Part shown: one piece after another, positions 322-2,929 of the stretch | How positions within the stretch are numbered: the stretch's first letter is position 1 | Layout of the letters: each line of letters starts with the position of its first letter | Assembly (NCBI RefSeq): GCF_002127965.1 | Contig: NZ_CP018787.1 | Coordinates: 2,108,001-2,172,000, forward strand | Reading direction: 5' to 3' | From: Oxalobacter formigenes | GTDB lineage: Bacteria > Pseudomonadota > Gammaproteobacteria > Burkholderiales > Burkholderiaceae_D | Length of the DNA stretch: 64,000 nt | The notes under the pieces: generated by a model | What the model was told of the DNA's origin: nothing | Database searches by the model: none | What the model saw: the letters and a program-made list of their open reading frames with translations, nothing else | Position numbers and translations under genes: made by a program

Positions 322-534
322 ATGATGAACGAATTTTTGGATAAATCACGCCCTGCAATGCCGTTAAATCGTTATGTATTTGCTGGGATATTTCAGGGTA
401 GTTGCCCTCGGTGCGGAGGATTTCTTGTAGGTAAAAAAGATTGTGAATGTGGACAACGCATTTTCTGGGAAAAACAAGAAATTCATGTTTGGGATAAGGC
501 GGGAAAGGAATTTTATGAAAACGCCCGAACCTGA
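322..534 (+). CDS. Small zinc-ribbon protein
   Basis: The predicted 70-residue protein has two cysteine pairs, CPRCGG and CECGQ, that form a plausible zinc ribbon, followed by a charged tail. ATG at 322 (or 325) was chosen because it follows the previous stop directly; an upstream TTG at 262 would overlap the preceding frame. The CGQRIFW motif resembles the CGQRLDW tails of the next two genes, suggesting a related zinc-ribbon family. Its 3' end overlaps the next gene by 20 bases. Function is unknown; phage zinc ribbons of this kind usually bind nucleic acid or host proteins. Confidence 0.55.
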   Translation: MMNEFLDKSRPAMPLNRYVFAGIFQGSCPRCGGFLVGKKDCECGQRIFWEKQEIHVWDKAGKEFYENART

Positions 535-1030
535 ATTACTGCCCTCTCCGCATGACGGAAGCAAAGTCAAATTTTGCGACGAATGCGATAGCGGCTGCCA
601 CAGAATTATCGGCAATGGCATAGAGATAGACCTACTGCCAACAATTCGTCAAGGCGACAGCTTGGAGAACCGCAGAGCTATATGCGCTGAGCGATGGAAC
701 GCCCGCGTTTACCCACCTCGATTTATACCAGAAACTCCGGCGCAGGTTCTGGAATGGCTATGCAGCAATTATCGCTCGTATGAAGCATTTCCAGATCCGC
801 AAGATGACACCTACACTTTAACTGCACACGACATATTAAGCGCATTCTCGTGGTGGGACGAAGATGAATACCCGCCAGAGGTTCAGGCTGCGATTGATCG
901 AAGCAAAAAAGAAAAAGTGAGTCTTATGCCGGGCGGCATTGGTGTATGTCCAAACTGTCTCGCAGATATTCACGATGAAATCACGCATTGCTGTCACTGC
1001 GGACAGCGACTGGATTGGAGCGAAGAATGA
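515..1030 (+). CDS. Lar-like plus zinc-ribbon protein of the phage early region
   Basis: The product has 171 residues. The first 60 or so (MKTPEPELLPSP... CDECDSGC ... AICAERWNAR) look like a decayed Lar/restriction-alleviation fold, whose family pattern is LLPCPFCG...AIxxWNxR; several of the usual cysteines are replaced. A C-terminal zinc ribbon (CPNC ... CCHCGQRLDWSEE) follows after an acidic middle. ATG at 515 has AAAGGA at 504-509. The stop overlaps the start of the next gene as ATGA. The Lar relation is inferred from pattern only, and restriction alleviation is not shown. Confidence 0.55.
   Translation: MKTPEPELLPSPHDGSKVKFCDECDSGCHRIIGNGIEIDLLPTIRQGDSLENRRAICAERWNARVYPPRFIPETPAQVLEWLCSNYRSYEAFPDPQDDTYTLTAHDILSAFSWWDEDEYPPEVQAAIDRSKKEKVSLMPGGIGVCPNCLADIHDEITHCCHCGQRLDWSEE
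998..1024 (+). repeat. Gene-junction repeat, copy 1 (tail codons plus RBS)
   Basis: These 27 bases encode the CGQRLDWSE tail and match 1438-1464 at 25 of 27 positions. The GGAG inside (1017-1020) is also the ribosome-binding site of the next gene, six bases before ATG at 1027. The segment therefore has both a coding and a translation-start role. Confidence 0.8.
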
Positions 1031-1467
1031 CTAACGATGAAATCTACATCACTCACCCGGTTACCGGTGAATCGATGGATAAATCAATGTGCAAGCGCGT
1101 TATTACGCAGCTTTACGAACAACGCGAAGCATTGGAAAAGCAGATCGATGGACTGCATGATCAGATCATGAATTTGCCTTGCTTGGATCAGCCGGGCGTA
1201 GAACGTAATAGCCAGATTGCATACAAGACAGGACACAGAGATGCCAGACATGCTGCCGCTGAACTTGTGGCAATGATCGAGGCAGAAACCAAGAATGAAT
1301 CACCTGCGATTGAAAGAGATATACCTGTTCAACCGAAATTGATTACAGCAACGAGAGAGGATTTCGACGACACCTTTGAATGCCCATCATGCGCAAAGAG
1401 ATTTAGTTCTTTTGATGAGTTTGATTTTTGTCCTTGGTGCGGTCAGCGGCTGGATTGGAGCGAATGA
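1027..1467 (+). CDS. Zinc-ribbon-tailed protein, phage early region
   Basis: The start is ATG overlapping the previous stop (ATGA), with GGAG six bases upstream, so a longer frame beginning at 988 was rejected. The product has 146 residues: a helical, coiled-coil-like N-terminal half (KRVITQLYEQREALEKQ), a middle that may dimerise, and a C-terminal zinc ribbon (CPSC ... CPWCGQRLDWSE). The tail is almost identical to that of the preceding gene at both protein and DNA level, while the N-terminal parts are unrelated, which points to domain shuffling. Function unknown. Confidence 0.6.
   Translation: MTNDEIYITHPVTGESMDKSMCKRVITQLYEQREALEKQIDGLHDQIMNLPCLDQPGVERNSQIAYKTGHRDARHAAAELVAMIEAETKNESPAIERDIPVQPKLITATREDFDDTFECPSCAKRFSSFDEFDFCPWCGQRLDWSE
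1438..1464 (+). repeat. Gene-junction repeat, copy 2
   Basis: This is the second copy of the 27-base junction element, at the end of the 1027-1467 gene, with two differences from 998-1024. Its GGAG (1457-1460) lies six bases before ATG at 1467, the same spacing as in copy 1. This argues that ATG 1467 rather than 1464 starts the next gene. Confidence 0.8.
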
Positions 1468-1763
1468 TGGCCTGCAACATTACTAAACGCGACGGCATGA
1501 CCATCTTCATTTGCGGAAGTGAGTTGCCGCAGTGGGAAGTGTGTGCCGAATGCGGGGATGTCGCCGATATTCTATGCGACTACCCTGTTGGCGACGGCCT
1601 GACGTGCGACCGTAATCTATGTGCTGATTGCGCTGTCGAGGTCGCGCCGAACCTGCATTACTGTAAACCGCACTTTGAAATGTGGAAGCAATTCAAAGAA
1701 TCGGGAGGCGTTCGTGATGTTCTTCAGAACGTCGTTCCATTTTCGAGATTGGATCGTCCATGA
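1467..1763 (+). CDS. Cysteine-rich small protein, unknown
   Basis: The product has 98 residues with many cysteines and histidines (VCAECGDVADILCDYP, LTCDRNLCADCAVE, LHYCKPHF). They fit one or two zinc sites of B-box or treble-clef style. ATG at 1467 has a good GGAG six bases before it; ATG at 1464 is the alternative and would overlap the previous stop. The stop forms ATGA with the next gene, so translation is probably coupled. No named family is certain, but similar cysteine-rich proteins occur in phage early regions. Confidence 0.55.
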   Translation: MACNITKRDGMTIFICGSELPQWEVCAECGDVADILCDYPVGDGLTCDRNLCADCAVEVAPNLHYCKPHFEMWKQFKESGGVRDVLQNVVPFSRLDRP

Positions 1764-2483: not shown

Positions 2484-2499
2484 ATGGCATCAATAAACA
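2484..2499 (+). repeat. 16-bp direct repeat at ssb start
   Basis: Second copy of the ATGGCATCAATAAACA repeat (first copy 1996-2011). It provides the start codon and the first five codons of ssb. Confidence 0.85.
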
Positions 2500-2929
2500 A
2501 GGTAATTCTCATAGGCAACTTGGGCCGTGACCCAGAAAATCGCTATTTGCCCAGTGGTGAACAGGTGACCAGTATTGCAGTTGCGACAACAGAAAGCTGG
2601 AAAGATAAAACTACCGGCGAGAAACAAAGCCTGACCGAATGGCATCGCATTTCCTTCTTCGGCAAACTGGCTGAAATTGCAGGCCAGTATCTAAAAAAGG
2701 TTCGCAGGTCTACATTGAAGGCCGTCTGAGAACGCGTAAATATACCGACAAGGAAGGCATCGACCGTTACGCGACCGAAATCATCGCCGACACTATGCAG
2801 ATGCTTGGCAGCCGTCAGGATGGGCAGGAAAGCACTGGGCGCAATAAATATGCGGAACAAACAGGCAGAGACGCGCCAAGTCAGCGCCCTGCTCCTATGT
2901 CTGATATGGACGACGATATCCCGTTTTGA
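2484..2929 (+). CDS. ssb: Single-stranded DNA-binding protein, read through a -1 frameshift
   Basis: The N-terminal OB-fold half ([18 protein letters not shown] ... [20 protein letters not shown]) is classic SSB. The frame then goes to a stop at 2727-2729, giving an 81-residue truncated product. Shifting by -1 at 2693-2699 continues with [17 protein letters not shown] and ends in the acidic tip MDDDIPF, giving a 148-residue SSB of normal layout with stop at 2927. The shift site is an A AAA AAG heptamer in the correct phase, the same slippery sequence as in dnaX. Either the gene uses programmed -1 frameshifting, or it carries a one-base A deletion (biological or sequencing). SSB binds single-stranded DNA as a tetramer and recruits partners through the PF tip. 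Confidence 0.8.
2693..2699 (+). promoter_or_regulatory. Possible -1 ribosomal frameshift site in ssb (A_AAA_AAG)
   Basis: The zero-frame codons CTA AAA AAG present the heptamer in the phase needed for tandem tRNA slippage, and a -1 step gives GGT TCG CAG, the exact SSB continuation. An AGG at 2681-2683 lies nine bases upstream, a weak Shine-Dalgarno-like stimulator. I see no strong stem-loop just downstream. A deletion in the A-run would look identical. Confidence 0.5.

Follow-up and report, generated by a model that had tools for sequence, protein, structure and literature searches.

Results

Three consecutive forward-strand genes are considered here, within a window (the whole stretch of DNA analysed, 64,000 nucleotides) that corresponds to positions 2108001-2172000 of the 2.47 Mb Oxalobacter formigenes genome. 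Gene 1 (518..1030, + strand, 170 aa) consists of an N-terminal part and a C-terminal zinc ribbon ending CCHCGQRLDWSEE; gene 2 (1027..1467, +, 146 aa) joins an ITHP/KRVITQ part, an LHDQIMNL part and a C-terminal zinc ribbon; and gene 3 (1467..1763, +), identified as an open frame with its start at 1464 or 1467, encodes a Cys-rich protein of 98 aa. IMG/VR has a 56,898-base viral contig for the DNA around these junctions. In the same prophage, a 255 aa frame (L008, 6525-7292) is made up mostly of short VYGDAWV/VSGNA-type repeats, and the ssb gene (window 2484-2929) appears to carry a frameshift that leaves 81 aa and a remainder of 44 aa, where the copy of ssb in a second prophage of this genome is intact (151 aa). 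A model of oxalyl-CoA decarboxylase reaches 887.7 bits in the genome, against a cut-off of 739.4.

An earlier note on this DNA reported that genes 1 and 2 end in nearly the same 27 bases, and this was confirmed. Tail copy 1 (998..1024, +) reads TGC GGA CAG CGA CTG GAT TGG AGC GAA and tail copy 2 (1438..1464, +) reads TGC GGT CAG CGG CTG GAT TGG AGC GAA, such that 25 of 27 bases are identical and both mismatches fall at third codon positions. Each copy encodes the peptide CGQRLDWSE. A search of the window with a degenerate pattern coding for this peptide, allowing up to three mismatches, returned these two copies only, where shuffled sequence leads one to expect none.

Both proteins end in a zinc ribbon with the pattern CPxC-x(n)-CxxCGQRLDW, and the 27 bases encode its last knuckle. 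The ribbon extends over 947..1027 (+) in gene 1 (CPNC...CCHCGQRLDWSEE) and 1381..1464 (+) in gene 2 (CPSC...CPWCGQRLDWSE). In a profile search, both C-termini were matched by phrog_10714 (E 3.6e-6 for gene 1 and E 1e-10 for gene 2), and the ribbon of gene 2 carries the invariant Cys residues of our alignment A1. The presence of two CxxC knuckles, the second in the form CxxCGQ[KR]LDW, places the domain in the PHROG 10714 type, and its Cys pattern suggests that it binds zinc. Zinc-ribbon matches of the window genes in Pfam were all sub-threshold, and the ribbon profile gave weak matches to rubrerythrin, eS27 and bL32. The proteins had been described as unrelated upstream of the tail; this is correct for their N-terminal parts but not for the last ~30–50 residues, which form one common zinc-ribbon module.

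Comparison of whole window genes with annotated phages (tblastn) yielded weak, partial matches only, and gene 3 had no family above cut-off in Pfam and PHROG profile searches. Neither gene 1 nor its copy in the second prophage reached the PF14354 (Lar restriction alleviation) gathering score in a Pfam search; two genus homologues (L297 and L301) pass that cut-off in their N-terminal part, and through its relation to them gene 1 is probably Lar-like.

The 16S rRNA in this genome has the 3' end GGATCACCTCCTTTCTAG, which contains CCTCC, and the GGAG spanning the Trp and Ser codons of each tail is therefore able to pair with CUCC. Six bases separate the first GGAG (1017..1020, +), which is the predicted Shine-Dalgarno site of gene 2, from ATG 1027. 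The second (1457..1460, +), the corresponding site for gene 3, lies six bases before ATG 1467 and three before ATG 1464, which is in frame with ATG 1467 and overlaps the gene 2 stop. The six-base spacing originally proposed for both genes thus stands for ATG 1027, and at the second junction only if translation begins at ATG 1467 rather than 1464. With a 16S complement at a workable distance from both ATG 1027 and ATG 1467, we infer that the tail would provide the site at which translation of the next gene starts. The ATGA arrangement makes it likely that translation is coupled where the genes overlap. Folding of the RNA at four junctions gave no structure clearly better than shuffles, and a hairpin-based coupling switch is accordingly unsupported.

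A third copy of the tail is found in the second prophage (an IMG/VR viral contig of 36,962 bases), where a homologue of gene 1 is followed by a different gene and the arrangement of GGAG, six bases and ATG is repeated. The DNA encoding the N-terminal part of gene 1 is ~96% identical between the prophages, and the middle of the gene is diverged. The ~96% identical stretch is a sharp-ended block (window 505-704, L007 7993-8186). Upstream of it lie two genes that are unrelated to each other but end in a KEFYEN tail, and the left end of the block lies inside this tail, at the Shine-Dalgarno site of gene 1. The tail together with GAAGAATGA (about 988-1029) is a second island of identity with diverged DNA on either side, such that in this one prophage pair there are breakpoints around the tail.

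Modules are also shuffled around the tail in genus relatives. A Lar-like/ITHP/ribbon arrangement (L306) ends CGQRLDWSNNELE, and the start of a further gene lies within this tail; in L301 the tail is CGKKLDWEFGNGID and ssb starts inside it; and in L297 an excisionase-like gene follows the tail CGQALDWEA. Tail codons and residues both differ among these relatives (CGKKLDWEF, CGQALDWEA, CGQRLDWSNN). On the reverse strand of L306 (3787-4732), the ITHP and LHDQIMNL parts are two genes split by a ribbon end, where window 1027-1467 has a single gene.

Further relatives were collected by scanning viral contigs for CGQ[RK]LDW and CPxCGQKLD and adding the window and genome loci, which gave at least 114 non-identical zinc-ribbon ends, at least 112 of them with Trp after Asp. 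Most of these searches required the Trp; in the one that did not, it followed CGQKLD in 31 of 32 matches. The consensus of the ribbon is CPxC-x(n)-YCxxCGQ[KR]LDW, the invariant columns of A1 being C, C, C, CGQ, D and W, and among the matches listed 90 of 95 aligned tail proteins, almost all of viral-contig origin, matched phrog_10714. The Trp is also kept in tails that have no nearby start and, given this and its retention after CGQKLD, we regard it as a feature of the protein; the idea that it is retained for the sake of the Shine-Dalgarno site was rejected, as it is present where no start follows.

Among the matches listed, about 100 non-identical relatives in viral contigs have the CGQ[RK]LDW end in common, whereas the N-terminal parts ahead of it and the genes after it are many: 70 N-terminal parts fall into 52 clusters and 90 downstream proteins into 71. 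The N-terminal clustering took N-terminal parts only; single linkage on the 80 residues ahead of the final knuckle joined 91 proteins by way of their common ribbon and was rejected. In annotated phages the gene after the tail is DUF1492, Lar or hypothetical: Solobacterium phage SMO_1P has the tail CGQRLDWSEE with TGGAGTGAAGAATGA and then a DUF1492 gene, and Ruminococcus phage phiRgIBDN1 has CGQRLDWSE and then a Lar gene. The concern that the tail might belong to one fixed pair of genes can be set aside, since the third copy, the genus relatives and the annotated phages all place it behind and before different genes. A zinc-ribbon tail with an embedded ribosome-binding site recurs in many phages.

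Codon use at these tails was analysed with start codons inferred from open reading frames unless the phage was annotated. Where Ser follows Trp, 40 of 48 tails use an AGY codon, whereas AGY makes up 53% of the remaining Ser codons in these ORFs (p 9e-6). A GGAG or GGGAG located at the Trp is associated with a start 5–13 bases on (37/45 vs 18/59, odds ratio 10.5, p 1.5e-7), including when the set is reduced for similar proteins (odds ratio 11.6, p 9e-7), and synonymous recoding lowers the Shine-Dalgarno score of the tails from 4.40 to 3.64 (p 2.5e-9). The AGY bias and the tie to nearby starts uphold the claim that the tail is both a protein end and the Shine-Dalgarno site of the next gene. Ribbon ends in CGAKMD (L174-L293) provide a Shine-Dalgarno site through other residues, such as MDGG read as GGAGGT, and their mean score of 5.54 drops to 3.99 on recoding.

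The earlier note held that synonymous changes destroying the GGAG would speak against its reading. Such changes do occur, with Ser as TCN in 8 of 48 tails, and they count against a fixed 27-mer. Four of the eight have a later start or none; among the four with a near start, three have GGAGG, GGAG or GAGG roughly a codon further along and the fourth (L127) has GGTGA only. As changes that remove the GGAG accompany a shifted Shine-Dalgarno site or a distant or absent start, it is the function and the domain that are kept, not the 27 bases. The spacing between GGAG and start also varies, 6, 8, 9, 11 and 12 bases all being common, and is not always six.

As a control, 422 ATGA gene pairs elsewhere in these contigs showed the same Shine-Dalgarno excess (4.25 vs 3.49), and ribbon tails did not differ from these pairs in that excess (p 0.39). 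The proposal that ribbon ends are shaped by the Shine-Dalgarno site more than other gene ends is unsupported by this comparison, and because the control pairs behave alike, the mechanism is the one that is usual where genes are closely packed.

Discussion

We consider it very probable that the repeat corresponds to the C-terminal knuckle of a ribbon of PHROG 10714 type, widespread in phages, and that its last codons double as the Shine-Dalgarno site of the next gene. In this reading the tail belongs to a portable protein domain that carries a ribosome-binding site within it, one more instance of a kind already known. In the mechanism that we propose, the ribbon domain lies at the ends of two adjacent early-region prophage genes, and the protein itself fixes the Trp in the tail. 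The residue that follows Trp, and its codon, would be chosen, as the codon statistics support, such that TGG AGY (or AGR, GAG) yields GGAG or GGGAG, and this would pair with 16S rRNA to start the next, overlapping gene. Because the mobile domain sits at gene ends that are overlapped by gene starts, shuffling of N-terminal parts or downstream genes would retain the ribosome-binding site. The tail copies would be alike in DNA mainly because they encode the same nine residues with similar codon preferences.

Lambdoid phages have boundary sequences, short conserved stretches at gene junctions where neighbouring genes have been exchanged. The tail resembles these in being a short conserved junction with exchanged neighbours; it differs in that a protein domain and a Shine-Dalgarno site explain the conservation. 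The earlier note likened the two and proposed a portable DNA junction cassette, in which homologous or microhomology recombination at the tail DNA would swap neighbouring genes. The island of identity between the two prophages and the varied module order in genus relatives are consistent with such a cassette, as is the Defluviitaleaceae MAG (L014) that shares 26 of 27 bases with tail copy 2. The codons also match somewhat beyond what codon use predicts: from the nine residues and the codon use around them, at least 25 of 27 matches has P 0.014 (0.034 with Ser held to AGY), and the codon match of the three copies jointly has P 0.0004–0.002, leaving room for some common DNA history. However, the peptide-coding pattern was absent from 147 other genomes searched and had few matches in viral and genome collections, and the 27-mer was not found as a dispersed DNA element in any of these three sets. 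Across phages the tail codons vary nearly freely (58 distinct CGQKLD codon strings in 94 tails, vs 65 expected with independent columns), genus relatives use other codons and even other residues, and protein constraint by itself accounts for most of the identity. The observations can thus be explained without a DNA boundary sequence, and no nucleotide sequence was found conserved at many junctions across phages in the sets searched; the cassette is weakly supported and, in our judgement, unlikely. We think it similarly improbable that the zinc-ribbon end and its site form a selected exchange junction, the DNA of which is kept similar within the prophages of a host; if this were true, recombination would swap N-terminal modules and downstream genes with the start signal intact.

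Recent tandem duplication or gene conversion could account for adjacent genes that match at 25 of 27 bases. However, identity between the two copies is 25–37% directly upstream of the tail, which is the chance level, and 30–50% downstream, and two of the eight codons with a synonymous choice differ, making such an origin very improbable. Least probable of all is pure chance or codon bias, in which the tail is a protein motif and the GGAG incidental: Trp is a protein feature and Trp-Ser with AGY yields GGAG automatically, but the AGY enrichment, the tie to nearby starts and the shifted Shine-Dalgarno site in most TCN tails with a near start refute this at the population level, though it could hold at a single junction.

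The ribbon with an embedded ribosome-binding site, which we prefer, has several counterparts. PHROG 10714, a phage family of unknown function, and the phage 'zinc-ribbon domain containing protein' have the same C-terminal ribbon and CGQxLDW end, but the family says nothing on the downstream start, and the window genes carry other N-terminal parts. The Lar proteins resemble the genus homologues of gene 1; the window gene and its second-prophage copy differ from them in their sub-threshold scores and extra zinc-ribbon end. Our literature search found the general phenomenon and no paper on a CGQRLDW-type tail. In the sections of PMC2784483 on closely spaced genes, and in 1996 work cited there, a Shine-Dalgarno site within the coding end of the upstream gene constrains its codons, and this is presented as general for such genes. 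The junctions described here are alike in this respect; compared with what those sections describe, they differ in that one recurrent peptide end, LDWS, supplies the site.

In conclusion, the tail offers a clear, countable case of a protein motif and a translation signal on the same bases in many unrelated phage gene pairs. It also brings a caution, in that repeated DNA at gene ends may reflect a common protein domain and not a recombination site. These findings show how phage modules may shuffle without loss of the next gene's start.
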